A stretch of 64,000 nt of DNA, from assembly GCF_001748145.1 (NCBI RefSeq), contig NZ_BCQA01000001.1:3560501-3624500 (forward strand), given 5' to 3'. The stretch comes from Bosea sp. BIWAKO-01. Lineage in GTDB: Bacteria > Pseudomonadota > Alphaproteobacteria > Rhizobiales > Beijerinckiaceae. Shown piece after piece: positions 27,167-37,543 of this stretch. Both the position numbers and the translations under genes were made by a program. The stretch's first letter is position 1. Each line of letters begins with the position of its first letter. The notes under the pieces were generated by a model. The model had not been told where the DNA came from. It worked only from the letters and a program-made list of their open reading frames with translations, and made no database searches.

Positions 27167-29533
27167 TCAGACGGGAGGCGCCCGCTGCGCCTTCAGCCAG
27201 GCTCCGATATCGGCGTAGAGCCCCTCGAAGGGACGGAAGACGAAGCGGATCTTCGATCGCCCTGGCGGCACAGCGACCGCTCGGAACAGGACATTGGCGC
27301 GAAGCAACTGAGCTGGCTTGCCGTCGACTTCGACCTGCCACCAGTGATGCCAGACATCATTGAGCACGACATAGCCGCCGCGCGGTGCATCCGCTTCGAG
27401 AGCCACTTCGGTGGTGCCGTAATCGACGATGCGGACCGAGCCGGGCTGAGCCGGCCCGGCGGGCAGGGACGGCGGGGCCCTCTCCAGAAGGACCGTGGTT
27501 CTCGGGTCGAAACCTGCCGGCCATTGGCCGCTTGCCAGGATCGCGCCGAAATCGGCCCGCTCGGCCTTCTCTACGAGCAGAACGCGCGGCAAGGCGCGTG
27601 GGTTCTCGTAGACATAGCCGTCACGCGTCCGGGCGATCTGAACGAGGTCGCCGGGCTTCAGGGTTTTGTCGATCTGTTCGACGGGGACGCCGGTCGCGAT
27701 GAAACGCAGGCCGAGCATGTCGGCGAGCAGCGAGCGGTAACCCGGCATCAGCGGCGAGAACGTGCGTTGGTCCGGTAAGGCGACATGGTCGCCCGCGCCC
27801 GTGGCCTTGCTGTAGAGACCGAGCCTGAGGGGATTGTAGCCGAGCGTATTGTCGAGTTGATGGACGAGACTGGCGTTGGGCCAGTGGAAATCGATGCCCG
27901 CGAGCTCGATGCGGTCGCGGCGATCCGGCGCGGCGGTGCGGGCCGTCTCGCGCTTGAGCAGGGCAATCGTCTCGTTCGTGCTGTCGGCGCGCAGGACGTC
28001 ATAATTCTGCGAGGGCAGGGCGGTGGATTCGCTCGGACCGTTGTTGACGGAGAGATCCACCGTCAGCGTCGCCGCCAGCAAGGCAGCGGCCGCAAGCGTT
28101 GCCCCTCTCAGCGCGAGCCCGCGTGCCGCAACCAACGCGCCCGCGCTCAAGAGGGCGCAGAGGAGCGCCGTGACGAGCGGGATCGTCGCGACACCGATAC
28201 GTCCGACGGTCCAGGCGAGCCAGAGGGCGAGCCCAAGGGCGCCGATCAGAAGCGCGGCCTCGACGAGCACTTGCCAGAGCCGCGCGGGTGGCGCCGTGTC
28301 GGTCATGACGAGATGGGTCAGGTAGCCGCCGAGGATCGCGAGCAGCGCCCCCAGGATGAAGAGCGCATCGGCCGGCCGCCGATAGAAACTCACGCCCGGC
28401 AGCGCCTCGAAGATCAGCCGGAAACCGGGGGTGTAGCGACCGAGTGCGTAGACCAGCACCAGCAGCGCTGCGATGGTGATCGCGATGATCTCACGCCGCA
28501 GCAGCGCGCCACGCACCAGTCCGACGGTCAGGATCAGCAGCATCGGCAGGAAGCCGAGATAGAGCTCGCCCATGTTGCGGGCGAGATAGAGATCGAGCGG
28601 TCCGAACCGCTGTTCCCAGGCAGGGCTCGGCGGTCCCCAGAAGTTCTCGAGCGGCCCTGCCGCGCCATAGAGATTGGCGATCAGCCCGGTGAGCAGGGAT
28701 GCAGGGTGCAACGAACCCTTTCCGGCACCGATGAGATCGATTGCGGGACGGTTCGATTCCTGGGCCAGGAAGGCAGTGAGCAGGATCGGGACGGTCGCGA
28801 CGAGGATGGCGCCGAGCGACCCGGCGAGGAGCGGGAGGATGCTTGCGCGCAAGGCCCGCAGCGGCCTGTCGGCCATGGCAATGGCGGCGATCACCAGCCC
28901 GGCCAGGACGTAGACGCCGAGCAACGCAACCTGATCGCGGCCAAGCACCATGAGGCCGGCCACGATGCCCGCCGCCAGGCCGTAGATCAGCGAGCTGCGT
29001 TCAAGCGCACGCGACAGCAGCAATAGCGTGATGGCGAAATAGCCGAGACTGAGCACCTGCCCGATATGCTGGATGCGCCAGGCTGCGGAAGCGCCGAAGG
29101 CGAAGGCGAGAGCGGCAACGACAGCACCGGCCGGATGCCAGTTGCGATCGCGAAACAGCAGCACAAGCGCGACGGCGCCCGCCAGCAAGGTGGCGAGCAC
29201 TGCGCCGTCGCTCCAGCGAAAGCTCGGCGCCGGATTGAAGATCGCGATCAGCGCGAAGGGGGGTGAAAAGATCAGGGATTGCGGGTCGGCGACCTGCGGC
29301 GATCCGGCAAAGACATAGGGCGTCCAGAACGGGGAAAGGCCGCGGTTCAGCGCTGTCGCCAGGAATTGCAGCTGTGGATGAAAATGGGCCTTCGCGTCCC
29401 AGGGAATGGTGACGATTCCCGAGAGCCAGGGCCAGGACAGGGCCAGCCAGGCGCAGAATACGATGCAGAACACGCTGGCCAGCGGCCAGCGTGTCGAGGG
29501 AACCGGAGGGGGGGCGGTGCCGGGCTCGGACAT
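27167..29533 (-). CDS. Large polytopic membrane protein, YfhO/GT-C-like
   Basis: The 788-residue protein has about 12-13 membrane segments in residues 15-490 and a C-terminal extracytoplasmic domain (about 500-788). The first loop contains I-P-W-D-A-K-A-H-F-H-P-Q-L-Q-F and later P-F-W-T-P-Y-V-F-A-G-S-P, a layout found in YfhO-like and GT-C lipid-linked glycosyltransferases where an acidic residue in loop 1 is catalytic. The C-terminal part ends in the bacterial-membrane-protein pattern V-V-L-N-D-V-W-H-H-W-W-Q-V-E-V-D-G-K-P. A role in envelope polysaccharide or glycolipid assembly is inferred. It is separated from ribA by 31 bp on the same strand. Confidence 0.75.
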   Translation of the reverse strand: MSEPGTAPPPVPSTRWPLASVFCIVFCAWLALSWPWLSGIVTIPWDAKAHFHPQLQFLATALNRGLSPFWTPYVFAGSPQVADPQSLIFSPPFALIAIFNPAPSFRWSDGAVLATLLAGAVALVLLFRDRNWHPAGAVVAALAFAFGASAAWRIQHIGQVLSLGYFAITLLLLSRALERSSLIYGLAAGIVAGLMVLGRDQVALLGVYVLAGLVIAAIAMADRPLRALRASILPLLAGSLGAILVATVPILLTAFLAQESNRPAIDLIGAGKGSLHPASLLTGLIANLYGAAGPLENFWGPPSPAWEQRFGPLDLYLARNMGELYLGFLPMLLILTVGLVRGALLRREIIAITIAALLVLVYALGRYTPGFRLIFEALPGVSFYRRPADALFILGALLAILGGYLTHLVMTDTAPPARLWQVLVEAALLIGALGLALWLAWTVGRIGVATIPLVTALLCALLSAGALVAARGLALRGATLAAAALLAATLTVDLSVNNGPSESTALPSQNYDVLRADSTNETIALLKRETARTAAPDRRDRIELAGIDFHWPNASLVHQLDNTLGYNPLRLGLYSKATGAGDHVALPDQRTFSPLMPGYRSLLADMLGLRFIATGVPVEQIDKTLKPGDLVQIARTRDGYVYENPRALPRVLLVEKAERADFGAILASGQWPAGFDPRTTVLLERAPPSLPAGPAQPGSVRIVDYGTTEVALEADAPRGGYVVLNDVWHHWWQVEVDGKPAQLLRANVLFRAVAVPPGRSKIRFVFRPFEGLYADIGAWLKAQRAPPV

Positions 29534-30972: not shown

Positions 30973-31554
30973 GTGATCAGTCACGACGCCAAGGCGGGCA
31001 AATCGGGCATGGCAGAGATCTACAGCCCGGTCGCACGGGGGTTCCACTGGCTGATCGTCGCGCTCGTCCTCGTGATGATCCCGCTTGGCCTGGCGATGAC
31101 CTATCGCGGCAAGACGCTCGATATCTGGGATGGACTGACCAACTCCCTCTACAGTGCGCATAAGCTGATCGGCTTCACGCTGCTCTGGCTGATGGCCGGG
31201 CGACTGGCTTATCGCCTTTTGCATGGTGCTCCGTCCGACGAGCCGACCCTGCTGTGGTGGCACAAGGCCGGTTCGCATCTGGTGCATTGGCTGCTCTACT
31301 GCCTGCTGCTCATCGTGCCGATCCTGGGCTGGATCGGTGTGTCGCTCTTTCCAGCGCTGACGGTCTTCGATCTGTTCGATCTACCGGCACTCGCTGCGCC
31401 GAATGAGGATATGGCGAAGAGGGTGCTCAATATCCACGGGTGGCTGGCGCTCGGCATGGCCTTGCTGATCGCAGCGCATATCGCAGCCGTGATCTATCAC
31501 CGTTTCATCCGCAAAGACGGCGTGTTGCGGCGGATGTGGCCGGGGGCGCGCTAG
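30973..31554 (+). CDS. Cytochrome b561 family protein
   Basis: The GTG at 30973 has GGGAG 6 nt upstream; an ATG at 31009 is also possible. The 193-residue protein has four membrane segments with heme-ligand histidines: H in A-R-G-F-H-W-L, H in Y-S-A-H-K-L-I-G, and H residues in N-I-H-G-W-L-A and A-A-H-I-A-A-V-I-Y-H. This is the bacterial CybB-like b561 family, which moves electrons across the inner membrane, probably from quinol. The 265-bp gap to the divergent ribA holds no gene that I can recognise. Confidence 0.88.
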   Translation: MISHDAKAGKSGMAEIYSPVARGFHWLIVALVLVMIPLGLAMTYRGKTLDIWDGLTNSLYSAHKLIGFTLLWLMAGRLAYRLLHGAPSDEPTLLWWHKAGSHLVHWLLYCLLLIVPILGWIGVSLFPALTVFDLFDLPALAAPNEDMAKRVLNIHGWLALGMALLIAAHIAAVIYHRFIRKDGVLRRMWPGAR

Positions 31555-31564
31555 TCGACCGGCT

Positions 31565-32404
31565 TCAGACGGGCCGGGCCCAGAGGTCCTGATGGCCGAC
31601 GAGCCCGGAGATGGTCGCGCGCTTGGCCTCCAGCCAGTCTGCGACCGTGGCGGGGTCGACATGGCCGGTTTCGGTGACCGCTTCGGCGATGCCCTTGGTC
31701 AGGGCCTCCGCCAATTCGCGCTGGCTCTCGTCGATCAACCACGGACTTTCGCCGGTGGAAACCGCGAAGCCGGATTTGCGGAAAGCCTCGGCCATCGCCT
31801 CCGTAGCATCCGGTCCAGCGGCTGGACCAAAGCCCTTGTCGCTGTGCTGATGATGGTGAAAGGCCGCCAGGACCCTGGCGTCGGCGTCATGTTTCGGCTG
31901 CCACTGCTCGCGGCCGTCATAGGTCAGCACCGTGTAGAGCGGGACGTTCTGGCTCACGAGTGCGGCGACGAAACGTTCGAGCCATCGCTTCGAGGTGAGG
32001 TCGAACAGGGCAGCGGCGGTCACCAGATCCGGCTGCCAGCCCAGGACCCATTCGAGATCCTTGTTCAGGTCCGCCTTGCGGGTATCGACGGTGATTGTCT
32101 TGCCACCCTTGCTCAGGACGAGCTCCTCGCCCTGCTCGCGGACGTCATCGGCCCAGGCCGCGAGGCGCTCGCGAGCGACGCCAAGCAGGCGCTCATCGAA
32201 ATCGACGAGCGTCCAGTGCTGCCGGGCGGGGAGCGCGGAATAGGTGCCGCGTAGGTTGGAGCCTGCGCCGCAGCCGAGATCGACGATGGTGAGCGATGGG
32301 CGGCTGGAGAAATGGGCGCCAACGGCTGCAAGCAATTGCGGGTTGCGTGCCGCGTGATCGGCCGGCTCGCGCAGGGCCAGCCAGTCCGGAGAAAAGCCGC
32401 TCAT
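31565..32404 (-). CDS. Class I SAM-dependent methyltransferase
   Basis: The 279-residue protein has the SAM-binding motif I near residue 40 (I-V-D-L-G-C-G-A-G-S-N-L-R-G) and an acidic motif II T-L-V-D-F-D-E-R-L-L. The rest of the fold matches Methyltransf_11/25-type enzymes, with an unusual insert K-G-G-K-T-I-T-V-D-T-R-K-A-D-L-N-K-D. Its substrate is unknown. Its ATG overlaps the stop of the GT4 gene (ATGA, 32401-32404), so it is the last gene of a coupled four-gene operon. Confidence 0.85.
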   Translation of the reverse strand: MSGFSPDWLALREPADHAARNPQLLAAVGAHFSSRPSLTIVDLGCGAGSNLRGTYSALPARQHWTLVDFDERLLGVARERLAAWADDVREQGEELVLSKGGKTITVDTRKADLNKDLEWVLGWQPDLVTAAALFDLTSKRWLERFVAALVSQNVPLYTVLTYDGREQWQPKHDADARVLAAFHHHQHSDKGFGPAAGPDATEAMAEAFRKSGFAVSTGESPWLIDESQRELAEALTKGIAEAVTETGHVDPATVADWLEAKRATISGLVGHQDLWARPV

Positions 32405-33453
32405 GCAAACACCTTTCGGCAGGTCTCGGCGACGATCGTCGCGGTGTCTTGCCAGCGAGGCAACGTCTCGGCCGCGGCCCAGGAGGCATCGGCGAGGCGC
32501 TTTCTGCCAGTCGATTCGGCCAGAAGCTCGCTCAACGCCCGGGTCAATGCGCCGGCATCGCCGGGAGCAACCTTGATGGCGGCGGCATCCGGCACAGTTT
32601 CAGCTGCTGCTCCGCCGGTCGTGCACAGGATCGGCAGCCCTCGCGCCATCGCTTCGGTCAGCACCATGCCATATCCCTCGAAGAGGGAGGGCATGACAAA
32701 GATGTCGGCCTTGTCATAGGCCTGCGCCAACTCGGCCTCGCCGACGGCTCCCGCCAGCGTGATCCGGTCCTGAAGCCCGGAAGACGCGATCTGCGCCTTG
32801 AGCGCGAGCGTTGTCGCGGGCGCCCGGTCGGCTGAGCCGATAATCGTGAGCCGCCAGGCTACGTCCTGCAGCGGGCGCAAGGACTCAACCAGGATGTCGT
32901 AGCCTTTGCGCGGGACGAGGGACCCTACAGCGAGCAGTTGCAGCGGCTCGTCCGGGCGCCCGCCGGCAGCACGCGGTGCCCGATCGACGCCGGGTTCGGC
33001 CACTGCGATGCGTCCGGCGGAGACACCGAAACCGGAGACCAGAAGGCGCTTGGTCGCCGGACTCGTGACGATGATGGCGCTCGCATGACGCAGCGCGGCG
33101 GTTTCGCGCGCAATCAGCCGGCGGGCGTGCTCCGTTTCAAGTCCGGTCTCGAAGCCGAGAGGGTGGTGCACCAGCGCGACCACGCGACCGGCCAGATCGG
33201 CTGCGATGCTCTCCGGAAAGGCTCCATAGGCCAATCCGTCGATCAGCAGGACGTGATCGGAAGGCTGTGACAGGAGCAGCCGCCCGGTCTCGTCGAGATC
33301 CTTCGGCGTCGGGTTTGGGAAGGAGCCGGGCAGGGGGAGATGGCGCGCTGCGACGCCGTTCCCGCGCCATTCCTGCAGCAGGCGACGATCATAGCCATAG
33401 CCGCCCGTAGGCAGGTCGATCTCGCCGGGGATCGCGAAGACGATCTCGCTCAC
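32401..33453 (-). CDS. GT4-family glycosyltransferase
   Basis: The 350-residue protein starts with GTG at 33453, overlapping the stop of the PTPS-like gene. The C-terminal half carries the GT-B retaining signature F-E-G-Y-G-M-V-L-T-E-A-M-A-R-G-L-P-I-L (about 255-273) with the E-x7-E pattern that binds the nucleotide sugar, and the middle has S-L-V-P-R-K-G-Y-D-I-L. The acceptor is unknown; its operon position between a pterin-synthase-fold protein and a methyltransferase suggests a small or envelope-linked acceptor. Confidence 0.87.
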   Translation of the reverse strand: MSEIVFAIPGEIDLPTGGYGYDRRLLQEWRGNGVAARHLPLPGSFPNPTPKDLDETGRLLLSQPSDHVLLIDGLAYGAFPESIAADLAGRVVALVHHPLGFETGLETEHARRLIARETAALRHASAIIVTSPATKRLLVSGFGVSAGRIAVAEPGVDRAPRAAGGRPDEPLQLLAVGSLVPRKGYDILVESLRPLQDVAWRLTIIGSADRAPATTLALKAQIASSGLQDRITLAGAVGEAELAQAYDKADIFVMPSLFEGYGMVLTEAMARGLPILCTTGGAAAETVPDAAAIKVAPGDAGALTRALSELLAESTGRKRLADASWAAAETLPRWQDTATIVAETCRKVFA

Positions 33454-33851
33454 GCGAGGGCGCCCTCATAGCTGGCGCGGGCGAGGTCGGTCTCATGCAA
33501 GGTGACGCGGATGCGGGACAGCCCGGCGCCATCCTCGCCGAGGGCCCCGGACTTCGCGGCTCCGGCGATCGCGTCGAAGATGTATTTGCAGAGGAATTCG
33601 GTGGTGGTGAGCACGCCAGAAAACTGCGGCAGCGCATCGAGGTTCTGATAGTTCAACGGCTTCAGCGTCTTGTTCAGCACGTCGAGCGCGGCGCCGATAT
33701 CGACCACGACATTCTGGCGCGTGAGCCGCTCGCGGAAGAAGGCGACATCGACCACGAAAGTTGCGCCGTGCATGTTCTGCGCCGGGCCGAAGAACGGATC
33801 GGGCAGCGAGTGGCCGATCATGATGCGGTCGCGGACTTCGACGGAAAACAT
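33450..33851 (-). CDS. PTPS/QueD-fold protein with missing catalytic residues
   Basis: The ATG at 33851 follows GGGAG by 8 nt. The 133-residue protein aligns along its length with 6-pyruvoyl-tetrahydropterin synthase/QueD. The pterin-anchoring Glu is kept (E120 in L-H-E-T-D-L-A-R-A-S-Y), as are zinc-ligand equivalents H14 and H28. The third zinc His (the second of H-G-H) is A30, the catalytic Cys position is A24, and the D-H-H of the catalytic His site is N-Y-Q (67-69). The fold is therefore kept while the known chemistry should be lost or changed. Databases would probably call it 6-carboxytetrahydropterin synthase; I would not. It overlaps the GT4 gene and follows the MDR gene by 63 bp. Confidence 0.82.
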   Translation of the reverse strand: MFSVEVRDRIMIGHSLPDPFFGPAQNMHGATFVVDVAFFRERLTRQNVVVDIGAALDVLNKTLKPLNYQNLDALPQFSGVLTTTEFLCKYIFDAIAGAAKSGALGEDGAGLSRIRVTLHETDLARASYEGALA

Positions 33852-33914
33852 GTGAAACTCCCTTGAGCCGGCGCGTCGGCAGGCTCCTGTCTTGGCCAAC
33901 CCGCCTGTGTCAGG

Positions 33915-34922
33915 TCAATAGTGCAGCACTGCGGCAAGCCCGCGCCAATCGGCCGACAGCACGCCGGGAAGCTGCGCCGGAGCATCGGCGAAGAGGATTT
34001 CCTGCGTGATCAGCCCGTCCAGACGTTCGTCGGCGAGGAGGGCCATCGCGGCCTGAGCGCGCCTGGCGTAGTCCCATCGGGAACGGCGCGAAGGGGAGAC
34101 CTGCCCAACCTGCGAGGAGACGATCTGCAATCGCTTGGAATGGAAGGCGCCGCCGAGCGGGGCGGACACGGCGCCCTCGCCATACCAGCTCAGCTCGACG
34201 ATGCGGGCCTCGAAACCGGCCGCTGATATCGCCGTGGCAAGCCCTGGCGCCGAGGCGCTGGCATGGAAGACGAGATCGGCATTCTCAGGGGCGGCGCCGG
34301 GCTGCGCGAAACCGAAGCCGAGTTGCTCCGCCAGCGTCGCGCGGCCGGGGTCGATATCGACCAGCGTCACGTCGGCACCGGGTATCCGTGCGGCAATCCA
34401 GGCAACCAGCAGGCCGAGCACGCCGCCTCCGACGACGACAATGCGGTCGCCGGGACCGGATGCAGCATCCCAATGAGCATTCAGCGCGGTTTCCATATTG
34501 GCGGCGAGCACCGCGCGGCGAGCAGGAACGGCATCGGGCACGACCGTCAGGCGTTCGCGCGGCGCCACGAAGTGGCTCTGATGCGGATGGAGGCAGAACA
34601 CCGTCTTGCCAATGATATCGGCCGGCCCGTCTTCAACCAGCCCGACGGCGCAATAGCCGTATCTGACCGGGAACGGGAACGCGCCTTCCTGGAACGGCGC
34701 GCGCATGCGCTCGTGCTCGGACGGCGGCACGCGCCCCTCGAAGACCAGGCGCTCGGTGCCACGGCTGATGCCGCTCCAGAGTGTACGAACAAGGCAATCG
34801 CCCGGTCCCACCGGGGGCACCGCAACGGTGTTCAGGGCGCATTCACGCGGCGCCACATACCAGAGGCCCATCGCCGTCGAACTTGCGCCGGCTGCAAATG
34901 CCGGCTTTAGCTCCTGCGCCAT
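33915..34922 (-). CDS. MDR-family dehydrogenase lacking zinc ligands
   Basis: From the ATG at 34922 the product has 335 residues; the frame stays open far upstream, but only across the mdoH gene in antisense. The N-terminal GroES-like part has S-G-I-S-R-G-T-E (50-57) where zinc ADHs have the Cys-x-Ser/Thr-Asp ligand site, and Y-G-Y-C-A-V-G (88-94) where they have G-H-E. The structural four-Cys zinc loop is absent. A Rossmann motif V-V-V-G-G-G-V-L-G-L-L follows. This resembles zinc-free MDR enzymes such as the BchC-like group. It is the first gene of the four-gene operon, starting 45 bp from the divergent mdoH. Confidence 0.83.
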   Translation of the reverse strand: MAQELKPAFAAGASSTAMGLWYVAPRECALNTVAVPPVGPGDCLVRTLWSGISRGTERLVFEGRVPPSEHERMRAPFQEGAFPFPVRYGYCAVGLVEDGPADIIGKTVFCLHPHQSHFVAPRERLTVVPDAVPARRAVLAANMETALNAHWDAASGPGDRIVVVGGGVLGLLVAWIAARIPGADVTLVDIDPGRATLAEQLGFGFAQPGAAPENADLVFHASASAPGLATAISAAGFEARIVELSWYGEGAVSAPLGGAFHSKRLQIVSSQVGQVSPSRRSRWDYARRAQAAMALLADERLDGLITQEILFADAPAQLPGVLSADWRGLAAVLHY

Positions 34923-34967
34923 GTTGAGCAGACCCTCGCCTTGCACCATCGCATGACGGAAACCGCC

Positions 34968-36788
34968 ATGAACCAGCGCCCCGCTCCGACCACGTTCCAG
35001 CCGGTGGCGCAAGAGGCAGGCGACACTCTGCCGGGGCTGACCCCCGCCGGGCTGCAGACGATCGGCGTGCTGAGGGCGCGTCGGCTGCTGGTTCTCGTGC
35101 TCAATCTCTTCACCCTCGCCGGCCTTCTCTTCGGGCTGTCGCGCGTGCTGGGGGCGGGCGGCTGGACGCTCGCCGATATGGTGATCTTCGTCGCCTTCCT
35201 GTTTGGAGCTCCCTGGACCGTGCTCGGCTTCTGGAATGCTGCCATCGGGCTCTGGTTGCTGCATGGCGTCGAGGACGGGCGCGAGCAGGTTGCGCCTTTT
35301 GCCGCTGACGGCGATGTCGCGACGCCGCTGGCGGTTCGCACCGCAGTATTGATGACCCTTCGCAACGAGGACCCCGCGCGGGCCTTCCGTCGCTTGCGCG
35401 TGATCAAGCAAAGCCTTGACGCGACAGGGCAGGGCGGCTGGTACGACTATTTCGTGCTCTCCGACAGCAATGATCCTCGTGTCGCCGCTGCGGAGGAGGC
35501 GCTCGCCGAGGGGTGGGCGAGCGAGATCGGCGAGAGCGGCCGGGTAACCTATCGCCGCCGGACCGACAATACCGGTTTCAAGGCCGGCAATGTCCGTGAA
35601 TTCTGCGAGCGCTGGGGCGATCGCTACGAACTGATGCTGCCGCTCGACGCCGACAGCGTGATGTCGGGCGAAGCGATCGTCAGGCTGACCCGCATGATGC
35701 AGGCCCATCCGCGGCTCGGCATCCTGCAGAGCCTCGTCGTCGGCATGCCGAGCAGATCGGCCTTCGCTCGGATCTTCCAGTTCGGCATGCGTCACGGCAT
35801 GCGGCCTTACACGATGGGCTCGGCCTGGTGGATTGGCGAGTGCGGGCCCTTCTGGGGGCACAACGCCATGGTGCGGATCGCGCCCTTCCGCGATGAATGC
35901 CATCTGCCCGTGCTGCCTGGCGGCCCGCCGCTGGGCGGGGCGGTGATGAGCCATGACCAGGTCGAGGCGACCCTGATGCGCCGCGCCGGCTATGAGGTGC
36001 GCGTGTTGCCGGAGGAGATGGGAAGCTGGGAGGAGAACCCGCCGACCATGCTCGAATTCGCCAAGCGCGACCTGCGCTGGTGCCTGGGCAACCTGCAATA
36101 TCTCAAGCTGCTCGATCTGCCGGGCCTGAAGCCGATGAGCCGCTTCCAGCTCGTCTGGGCAATCCTGATGTTCCTTGGCCTGCCGGCCTGGACGCTGATG
36201 ATCGCGCTGCTGCCCTGGAAGGTGATCGAGGACGGCGCTATCGCCGGGTACCCGACGGGGCTCGCGGCTTTCCTCTACGTGTTGTTCTTCACGATGTATC
36301 TCTCGCCCAAGCTGGCGGGCTTTGCCGATATCCTGCTGACCAGCGGAGGTGCGAAGCGCTACGGCGGCACGGGCCGTTTCATCGCCTCGTCGCTGATCGA
36401 GATCGTCTTCGCCTTTCTGCAGGGCGCGGTCTCGACCTTCCGCACGACGCTGTTCATGATCGGCCTTGCTTTCGGGCGAGCGAAGATCGGCTGGAACGGC
36501 CAGTCGCGCGATGCGCACGCGCTGTCGTTTGCGACGGCATTCGCAGGTTTGTGGCCGCATCTGCTTTTTGGGCTCTATATCTTCGTTACCCTCGCCATCC
36601 TCTCTCCCACGGTACTGCTCTGGTCGCTGCCGCTGACCGCCGGCTACGTTCTGGCGATTCCCTTTGCCATGCTGACCGCCGCCCCGGCGCTGGGCGAATG
36701 GTTCGTCGCCCGCGGCCTCTGCGGCGTCCCTGAGGATTTCGATCCTCCGGCCGAACTCGTCGCCATCCAGGCGGAGACGCGCGCGTGA
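34968..36788 (+). CDS. mdoH: Glucan glucosyltransferase OpgH (MdoH)
   Basis: From the ATG at 34968 the protein has 606 residues (an ATG at 34953 is possible). It has two N-terminal membrane segments, a GT2 catalytic domain with R-N-E-D, L-P-L-D-A-D-S-V (DxD) and R-D-L-R-W-C-L-G-N, the processive (Q/R)xxRW-type site, and about six C-terminal membrane segments. OpgH polymerises beta-1,2-linked glucose for osmoregulated periplasmic glucans. It is shorter than E. coli OpgH (847) because the long cytoplasmic N-terminus is missing. No opgG partner is adjacent. The FkbM gene follows with a 1-nt overlap. Confidence 0.92.
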   Translation: MNQRPAPTTFQPVAQEAGDTLPGLTPAGLQTIGVLRARRLLVLVLNLFTLAGLLFGLSRVLGAGGWTLADMVIFVAFLFGAPWTVLGFWNAAIGLWLLHGVEDGREQVAPFAADGDVATPLAVRTAVLMTLRNEDPARAFRRLRVIKQSLDATGQGGWYDYFVLSDSNDPRVAAAEEALAEGWASEIGESGRVTYRRRTDNTGFKAGNVREFCERWGDRYELMLPLDADSVMSGEAIVRLTRMMQAHPRLGILQSLVVGMPSRSAFARIFQFGMRHGMRPYTMGSAWWIGECGPFWGHNAMVRIAPFRDECHLPVLPGGPPLGGAVMSHDQVEATLMRRAGYEVRVLPEEMGSWEENPPTMLEFAKRDLRWCLGNLQYLKLLDLPGLKPMSRFQLVWAILMFLGLPAWTLMIALLPWKVIEDGAIAGYPTGLAAFLYVLFFTMYLSPKLAGFADILLTSGGAKRYGGTGRFIASSLIEIVFAFLQGAVSTFRTTLFMIGLAFGRAKIGWNGQSRDAHALSFATAFAGLWPHLLFGLYIFVTLAILSPTVLLWSLPLTAGYVLAIPFAMLTAAPALGEWFVARGLCGVPEDFDPPAELVAIQAETRA

Positions 36789-37543
36789 TGGGCGTGGCCT
36801 ATCCCAGGGGTACGGCCAAGGCGATCGCACGTTCGCTCAGGGTCTATCACCGCGATCGTGGGCACCATGACGCGATGGATGCGCTCTATTCCGGCTTCCT
36901 GAAGCCAGGCGATCTCGCATTCGACATCGGCGCCCATGTAGGTGACCGGGTTTCCTCCTTCCGCCGGCTCGGTGCGCGGGTTGTTGCGCTGGAGCCGCAA
37001 CCTGGCCCGGCGCGTGCGCTTCGCCTCATTCACGGGCGGGATCCAAATGTCACCCTGGTGCAGGCCGCCTGCGGCGATCGGGCCGGCACCGTGACGCTCA
37101 GGATCAACAGTGCGAATCCCACCGTCTCGACCGTCTCCGAGCAATTCGTCGGTGCCGCCCATGGCGCCGAGGGCTGGGCAGACCAAGTCTGGGATCGCGA
37201 GATCACGGTACCCTGCACGACGCTCGACGCTTTGATCTCGCGCTATGGCGAGCCTGCCTTCATCAAGATCGATGTCGAGGGTTTTGAGGCCAATGTCCTT
37301 GCCGGGCTCTCGCGGCGGGTACCGGTGATCTCGTTCGAGTTCACAACGATCCAGCGCGATGTCGCTGAGGGCTGCCTCGCATTGCTTGAGACGCTGGGGC
37401 CGTATCGCTTCAATGTCGCACTGGGTGAAAGCCAGTTCCTCGAACTCTCCGAGGAGGCCAGCGCCGAAGCAATGGGCGGCTTCCTGCGTGATTTGCCGCA
37501 TTCGGCCAACTCGGGCGATATCTACGCCGTCCTGCACGGCTGA
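36788..37543 (+). CDS. FkbM-family SAM methyltransferase
   Basis: The 251-residue protein contains the FkbM pattern: D-I-G-A-H-V-G (SAM motif), V-V-A-L-E-P-Q-P, a central T-V-S-T-V-S-E-Q-F, and I-K-I-D-V-E-G-F-E-A-N-V-L-A-G. FkbM enzymes O-methylate sugars or polyketide hydroxyls. The start (T-G-A-T-G) overlaps the mdoH stop, so it is probably translated with OpgH. A role in modifying periplasmic glucan or a related glycoconjugate is a reasonable inference from coupling only. An alternative GTG lies 3 nt upstream. Confidence 0.87.
   Translation: MGVAYPRGTAKAIARSLRVYHRDRGHHDAMDALYSGFLKPGDLAFDIGAHVGDRVSSFRRLGARVVALEPQPGPARALRLIHGRDPNVTLVQAACGDRAGTVTLRINSANPTVSTVSEQFVGAAHGAEGWADQVWDREITVPCTTLDALISRYGEPAFIKIDVEGFEANVLAGLSRRVPVISFEFTTIQRDVAEGCLALLETLGPYRFNVALGESQFLELSEEASAEAMGGFLRDLPHSANSGDIYAVLHG

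Follow-up and report, generated by a model that had tools for sequence, protein, structure and literature searches.

A recurrent four-gene core around a PTPS-IV protein in Bosea sp. BIWAKO-01 and its association with RibA and RibD-type proteins

We analysed a 64,000-nucleotide stretch of Bosea sp. BIWAKO-01 (contig NZ_BCQA01000001.1, positions 3,560,501 to 3,624,500; the window is this whole stretch), which contains a unit of four genes for a dehydrogenase of the medium-chain dehydrogenase/reductase (MDR) type, a 6-pyruvoyltetrahydropterin synthase-fold protein of subfamily IV (PTPS-IV), a GT4-type glycosyltransferase and a methyltransferase. This four-gene core is recurrent and broadly conserved, and it is not wholly undescribed. 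It may be a conserved biosynthetic cassette whose product, a pteridine or diaminopyrimidine made from GTP, would be both glycosylated and methylated; we give this reading an even chance. The core and the nearby cyclohydrolase gene are arranged as follows.

33915-34922, minus strand: zinc-free MDR dehydrogenase, 335 aa, distantly BchC-like, first gene of the core unit
33450-33851, minus strand: PTPS-IV protein, 133 aa, with FGPAQ motif, 55% identical to SCO6650/3d7j
32401-33453, minus strand: GT4-type glycosyltransferase, 350 aa (PF13692/PF00534)
31565-32404, minus strand: class I S-adenosylmethionine-dependent methyltransferase-like protein, 279 aa
29565-30707, minus strand: RibA, GTP cyclohydrolase II (GCH II), with N-terminal extension (PRK08815/NF006456 type)

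All positions that an earlier note on this DNA had given for the core were verified. The four genes share one strand; 63 bp lie between the MDR gene and the downstream PTPS-IV gene, and the last three genes overlap, PTPS-IV and GT4 by GTGA (33450-33453) and GT4 and the methyltransferase by ATGA (32401-32404). RibA follows on the same strand beyond a single opposed gene, for a cytochrome b561-like protein, at a measured 857 bp from the methyltransferase gene (858 had been claimed). PTPS-IV matched Pfam PF01242 at 73.3 bits (cut-off 22.4) and GT4 matched its two families above cut-off; MDR and the methyltransferase gave Pfam matches only below the curated cut-offs.

Conservation of the core was followed in two even samples, 200 genomes of the phylum and 385 of the class, each including the window's own genome (G000, 7.33 Mb). 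PTPS-IV was patchy, present in 13/200 phylum and 45/385 class genomes. With the window's genome set aside and two genomes that both samples contain entered only once, these matches gave 54 sampled loci, 11 of them on stretches cut by contig ends. A further 80 GTDB loci are the best 80 of 548 confirmed relatives and lean towards close relatives. Partners were counted as tblastn matches (E <=1e-8, covering at least 40% of the query) within 9 kb, and 20 windows lying 100 kb away in carrier genomes served as controls. MDR directly upstream and GT4 directly downstream of PTPS-IV were each found in 52/54 sampled loci, and a methyltransferase downstream on the same strand in 48/54. All four genes stood in order in 47/54 sampled proteobacterial loci and in 57 of the best 80 GTDB loci, several of the others being cut by contig ends, as against MDR 0, GT4 1 and methyltransferase 0 in the 20 controls. 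The neighbourhood check proposed in the earlier note thus returned the four genes as a conserved unit, and their spread in GTDB relatives and in the even samples rules out an oddity unique to this strain. Gene order is kept in Alpha- and Gammaproteobacteria and in Actinomycetota. In the betaproteobacterial loci L063, L064, L070, L076 and L077 the methyltransferase lies about 5 kb off on the opposite strand, beyond MdoH; L063, L070 and L076 have an ABC transporter-type gene between the core and the displaced methyltransferase.

Twenty plasmid records matched PTPS-IV, and we opened nine. Five of these, Streptomyces among them, carry the four core genes in order; L093 and L098 have a stand-alone PTPS-IV, L099 has GT4 elsewhere, and the unannotated L100 gave MDR and GT4 matches. 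The Streptomyces fungicidicus plasmid encodes MDR, PTPS, GT4, methyltransferase, creatininase and RibA, and the Microbacterium plasmid MDR, PTPS, GT4, methyltransferase and RibD; these two and the Thiodictyon, Methylosinus, Agrobacterium and Palleronia plasmids all join the core, in varied order, to RibA, RibD or both. The Methylosinus copy is that of M. trichosporium OB3b on pOB3b1 (L096), and Xanthobacter autotrophicus has a copy in L073. The records label cluster proteins as 6-carboxytetrahydropterin synthase and zinc-binding alcohol dehydrogenase, names that the sequences contradict. Identity to the window's PTPS-IV is 62% for two Polynucleobacter copies and 42-45% for some alphaproteobacterial ones. 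Because PTPS-IV identity departs from taxonomy and copies sit on plasmids, this suggests that the core cassette is horizontally mobile. On the Streptomyces plasmid loci L093 and L098, where PTPS-IV has no MDR, GT4 or methyltransferase beside it, cupin, MBL-fold and BTAD-regulator genes lie close by, and the fold may here be put to another use.

A compact seven-gene set (creatininase, MDR, PTPS-IV, GT4, methyltransferase, the RibD-type reductase RibD_C and RibA) was found in L190 (G440), an alphaproteobacterial genome of 1.4 Mb, and again in L191 (G514); L188 (G347) has the same set minus the creatininase, and all three genomes measure 1.4-1.6 Mb. Since gene order is kept across the three lineages named above, copies occur on plasmids and the core survives in such small genomes, it should make something useful. 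Loci L160 and L165 hold extended clusters that unite MdoH, RibD_C, RibA, cytochrome b561, a creatininase-like gene and an ABC exporter.

The PTPS-like protein of the window carries FGPAQ at residues 21-25. This motif occurs in 21 of 22 aligned PTPS-IV rows, the exception being a Streptomyces plasmid row with FGSAQ, and it is the PTPS-IV signature (COG0720) in the accessible text of PMC5445326. A structure of the relative SCO6650 was solved in 2008 (PDB 3d7j). On alignment to E. coli QueD (PTPS-I; 22-25% identity), the window protein shares the T-fold and equivalents of His16, His31 and Glu110, the glutamate that anchors the pterin, whereas the catalytic Cys27, the third zinc histidine His33 and the Asp70/His71 pair are all lost. 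It scored 30.7 bits with the QueD model TIGR03367, against a cut-off of 89.25. Neither the QueD/PTPS-I features (CxxxHGH, three zinc histidines, the cysteine and the Asp/His pair) nor the PTPS-II motif CxxxxxHGH nor the PTPS-III motif ExxHGH was found in the window protein. Motif, model score and alignment therefore rule out an ordinary QueD and place the protein outside that group, and the losses agree with the catalytically degenerate PTPS fold that had been proposed. The paper on SCO6650 of Streptomyces coelicolor by Spoonamore and Bandarian reportedly describes the structure of a single protein and assigned it no activity. Six residues (His14, Gln25, His28, Tyr68, Glu85 and Glu120 in window numbering) are invariant in the 22 rows. 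At G000:C1:5677451-5678517 (L002) the window's genome has a further PTPS-fold gene, whose product shows a CxxxHGY motif. It comes immediately after an additional folE on the same strand, one that little resembles the first; the accessible text of PMC5445326 gives the CxxxHGY motif for a 'PTPS-II-like' group.

An alignment of 165 MDR rows (129 distinct, as some genomes are represented by duplicated stretches) shows no variation at Ser53, Gly55, Glu57 and Gly89-Tyr90. Ser53 and Gly89-Tyr90 are what we take to be the zinc-ligand positions; on this assumed equivalence, no row has the zinc-ligand pattern and the MDR is zinc-free, as had been suggested. Its best NCBIfam match, BchC (bacteriochlorophyllide dehydrogenase; TIGR01202), reached 53.6 bits, far below the cut-off of 291.25. 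Pfam matches to Pyr_redox_2, DAO and AlaDh were below cut-off and were set aside as reflecting the nucleotide-binding fold. The predicted model of the methyltransferase has a pLDDT of 95.3, and all 50 matches listed in a structure search with it were methyltransferase-type folds; the best query TM was 0.61, and the search returned general folds only, with no hint of a substrate.

Outside the core, the strongest partner was RibD_C, a stand-alone RibD-type reductase, within 9 kb in 44/54 sampled loci against 1/20 controls. RibA was near in 21/54 against 1/20, one match (L176) being weak at 27% identity, and at least one of the two in 45/54. The only control window with RibA, L206, also has the only control RibD_C. 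The ligand motifs DG, T...D...L..R and EGG are intact in each of 76 cluster-type RibD_C proteins. The earlier note had cast RibA as a possible supplier of a GTP-derived precursor; it is indeed a recurrent partner, but RibD_C is the stronger one.

The window RibA passed the cut-off of NF006456 (490.8 bits against 464) and carries the motif CLTGD...CDCG, whose cysteines presumably bind zinc. We placed it in a tree of 65 of 80 RibA rows, after removing 10 close relatives by hand and 5 rows shorter than 300 aa, Streptomyces included. It fell within a 24-row clade (bootstrap 97, SH-aLRT 81) made only of cluster-adjacent RibAs, with Xanthomonas and Agrobacterium plasmid copies among them, nested in a less well supported 33-row cluster-only clade (88/87). 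Inside the 24-row clade there were 0/20 'non-cluster' rows, which were hand-picked from genome matches and include L235, at some 11 kb from the PTPS-IV of its genome. Among the RibAs scored, only members of the cluster-only clade passed NF006456 (besides the window's, G012 with 492.1, the pAt plasmid copy with 471.1 and Xanthomonas with 609.2). In the class sample of 385 genomes, G000 and G012 were the only two to pass, and some clade members stayed below, such as G504 at 422.5.

We infer a substrate, an order of steps, a PTPS-IV chemistry and a product, which would be a modified pterin-like molecule. RibA, a GTP cyclohydrolase II and not FolE, would convert GTP into 2,5-diamino-6-(5-phosphoribosylamino)pyrimidin-4-one, which in most carriers the stand-alone RibD-type reductase would reduce; as this enzyme has no deaminase domain, the 2-amino group typical of pterins would be kept. 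PTPS-IV may then bind the ring by its conserved glutamate and, needing no zinc, either close a ring or isomerise the side chain. Oxidation or reduction of the side chain could fall to the zinc-free MDR, GT4 would glycosylate the compound and the methyltransferase would methylate it. Since RibD_C is absent from the window locus and its nearest relatives, the reduction step would there be omitted or done elsewhere.

Several observations weigh against this pathway. RibD_C was found neither in the window nor in its 11 nearest loci (L003-L013), four of these 11 have no RibA within 10 kb, and 9/54 sampled loci have neither protein within 9 kb. GT4 and the methyltransferase belong to broad families that carry no substrate information. 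Twelve cluster-adjacent RibAs (L063, L067, L070, L076, L164, L173, L175, L176, L179, L184, L185 and L187, the branches to L176 and L067 being very long) fall outside the 33-row clade, intermixed with or close to RibAs encoded at other sites in genomes, and because of this it looks as if RibA had been recruited to the cluster more than once. The window's genome encodes three GCH II-like proteins. The second is a RibB fusion (G000:C1:3416245-3416646, L090) whose GCH II half lacks the zinc cysteines, presumably of the RibBX type; the third is longer and looks unlike riboflavin RibA, and lies beside an ORF that we take to be of the DUF1688 uracil-catabolism type. Because one has lost its zinc cysteines and the other looks unlike riboflavin RibA, the window RibA probably also serves riboflavin, and its adjacency alone is therefore weak evidence.

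RibA could accordingly be a housekeeping riboflavin gene that lies nearby by chance, with the core having no link to GTP-derived precursors. Besides its probable standing as the sole riboflavin-type GCH II of its genome and the four near relatives that lack it, the genome-wide distribution fits this explanation: window-type RibA (E <=1e-70) occurs in 140/385 class genomes, most of them without PTPS-IV. By a hand count in which kinship and genome size are not controlled, it is present in 36/45 carriers and 104/340 non-carriers, a difference that speaks for the proposed pathway. We nevertheless consider chance adjacency quite unlikely, as RibA is near the cluster in 21/54 loci against 1/20 controls, the window RibA sits within a cluster-only clade, plasmids carry RibA or RibD_C along with the core, and G213, G399 and G557 have a second RibA elsewhere in addition to the cluster one.

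The cluster seems able to do without any product of FolE, because four carriers (G347, G412, G440 and G514) have neither FolE nor FolE2, FolE being present in 51/55. Three of the four have both RibA and RibD_C in the cluster. G412 has RibD_C only; its 9 kb stretch contains no RibA and the genome gave no match to the RibA model, a further point against the proposed pathway. All four still have HPPK, as would be expected if the cluster replaced FolE and fed folate by a bypass like that of PTPS-III/VI. This is very improbable: most carriers keep FolE, the ExxHGH motif is absent from PTPS-IV, and G225, of the same genus as G440 and G514, lacks FolE and gave no PTPS-IV match. We dropped the bypass because non-carriers of the class are without FolE more often (75/315 near-complete genomes lack FolE, 4 of these 75 being among the 43 near-complete carriers).

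A creatininase relative (28-36% identity) was near 8/54 sampled loci, 0 of the best 80 GTDB loci and 0/20 controls. ArfB is the archaeal deformylase of a riboflavin-type precursor. The relative in the Streptomyces cluster scored highest with the MftE and creatininase models, although neither cut-off was reached, and matched ArfB at 37 bits, which is suggestive only; the relative in L190 gave no ArfB match.

PTPS-IV might instead serve coenzyme F420 synthesis. The products of RibA and RibD feed the F420 chromophore, and the surroundings of the Streptomyces copy include one PPOX-class F420-dependent oxidoreductase. The accessible text of PMC5041015 states a role of PTPS-IV in F420, as unpublished. 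We regard this as extremely improbable. The window's genome gave no match to CofH, whose model exceeds its cut-off in 3/14 control genomes, and no F420 biosynthesis gene was recognised among the identified neighbour groups, most groups not being identified.

Further genes flank the core and RibA in the window.

31009-31554, plus strand: cytochrome b561-like membrane protein (PF01292, 93.6 bits)
34941-36788, plus strand: MdoH-type membrane glucosyltransferase, divergent from the core (NF003963, 925.5 bits, cut-off 884)
36785-37543, plus strand: FkbM-family methyltransferase adjoining MdoH, weakly associated with the cluster
27167-29533, minus strand: 788-aa multi-membrane protein directly after RibA, weakly YfhO/PMT-like, below cut-offs

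A relative of the 788-aa protein also follows RibA in L019, L045 and L072. Taking sampled loci, the best 80 GTDB loci and controls in turn, MdoH was found in 14/54, 63 and 1/20, cytochrome b561 in 12/54, 51 and 0/20, FkbM in 7/54, 36 and 0/20, CDP-alcohol phosphatidyltransferase in 21/54, 2 and 0/20, and YceI in 15/54, 0 and 0/20. A flippase-like protein occurred in 5/54 sampled and 1 of the best 80 GTDB loci, and an LTA-synthase-like sulfatase in 5/54. In either the sampled or the GTDB loci, MdoH, the CDP-alcohol transferase, the flippase-like protein, YceI and cytochrome b561 occur more often than in controls, and they swap between lineages. YceI and the sulfatase came from a wider look at neighbouring genes, which also brought up LysR, response-regulator, ABC and other groups. 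Three candidate partners were rejected: the ABC exporter was not enriched in the even samples (3/54 against 2/20; 11 of the best 80 GTDB loci match), inositol monophosphatase was found in 0/54 against 1/20, and PfkB kinase in 0/54.

The lineage-specific neighbours (MdoH, the CDP-alcohol transferase, YceI, cytochrome b561) hint at an envelope or redox use. The product could be exported, attached or a redox carrier; alternatively, the neighbours could be different users of one product, or unrelated. Taken furthest, they would belong to a second, FolE-independent bacterial pterin route that leads from GCH II through the zinc-less PTPS-IV to an exported, sugar-bearing, redox-active envelope pteridine; partners of the cytochrome b561 or YceI type would keep it reduced, and MdoH, the CDP-alcohol transferase and the flippase-like protein would transport, anchor or further modify it. 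We hold this extension to be doubtful; the divergence of partner frequencies between sampled and GTDB loci counts against an envelope role.

The same neighbours, together with the sulfatase, favour another account, in which PTPS-IV is a non-enzymatic binding or scaffold subunit, the core glycosylates and methylates another acceptor such as an envelope glycan or lipid, and RibA and RibD_C merely supply a flavin or pterin cofactor. The loss of the PTPS catalytic residues also fits. Such a scaffold is nonetheless rather unlikely, since the six invariant residues resemble an active site, and the envelope partners differ by lineage while RibD_C or RibA recur.

We compared the proposed biosynthetic cassette with described systems. 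The accessible text of PMC5445326 (2017) gives, for its cluster-node 62, a PTPS-IV neighbourhood with PF00925, which it labels cyclohydrolase I/FolE2 and which is GTP cyclohydrolase II by Pfam, and with RibD_C (PF01872). FGPAQ and the PF00925 neighbourhood are common to the window, whose locus differs in having no RibD_C. The MDR-GT4-methyltransferase core, the envelope partners and a product do not figure in the accessible parts of the published accounts (PMC5445326, PMC5041015). The earlier note had called this an undescribed system. That does not hold for the PTPS-like protein, whose subfamily has a structure and a published RibA/RibD_C neighbourhood; it does hold for the four-gene core and its product, as we found no report in the open-access literature of the product, of the function of the core as a unit or of its partners. 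If the cassette reading is true, bacteria make a pterin-type metabolite from a riboflavin precursor rather than through FolE. Pterin signalling by PruA/PruR/DcpA, with the reductase PruA and the periplasmic binder PruR, was considered from PMC13259868 as another related system. The cyanobacterial pterin glycoside pathway, described in part in PMC5041015 and PMC13259868, consists of FolE, PTPS-II, sepiapterin reductase and a BH4 glucosyltransferase. Judged from genes alone, the window cluster shares its logic, a PTPS-fold protein combined with a side-chain redox enzyme and a glycosyltransferase; where that pathway uses FolE and sepiapterin reductase, however, the window cluster has GCH II and MDR, along with another PTPS subfamily and an extra methyltransferase.

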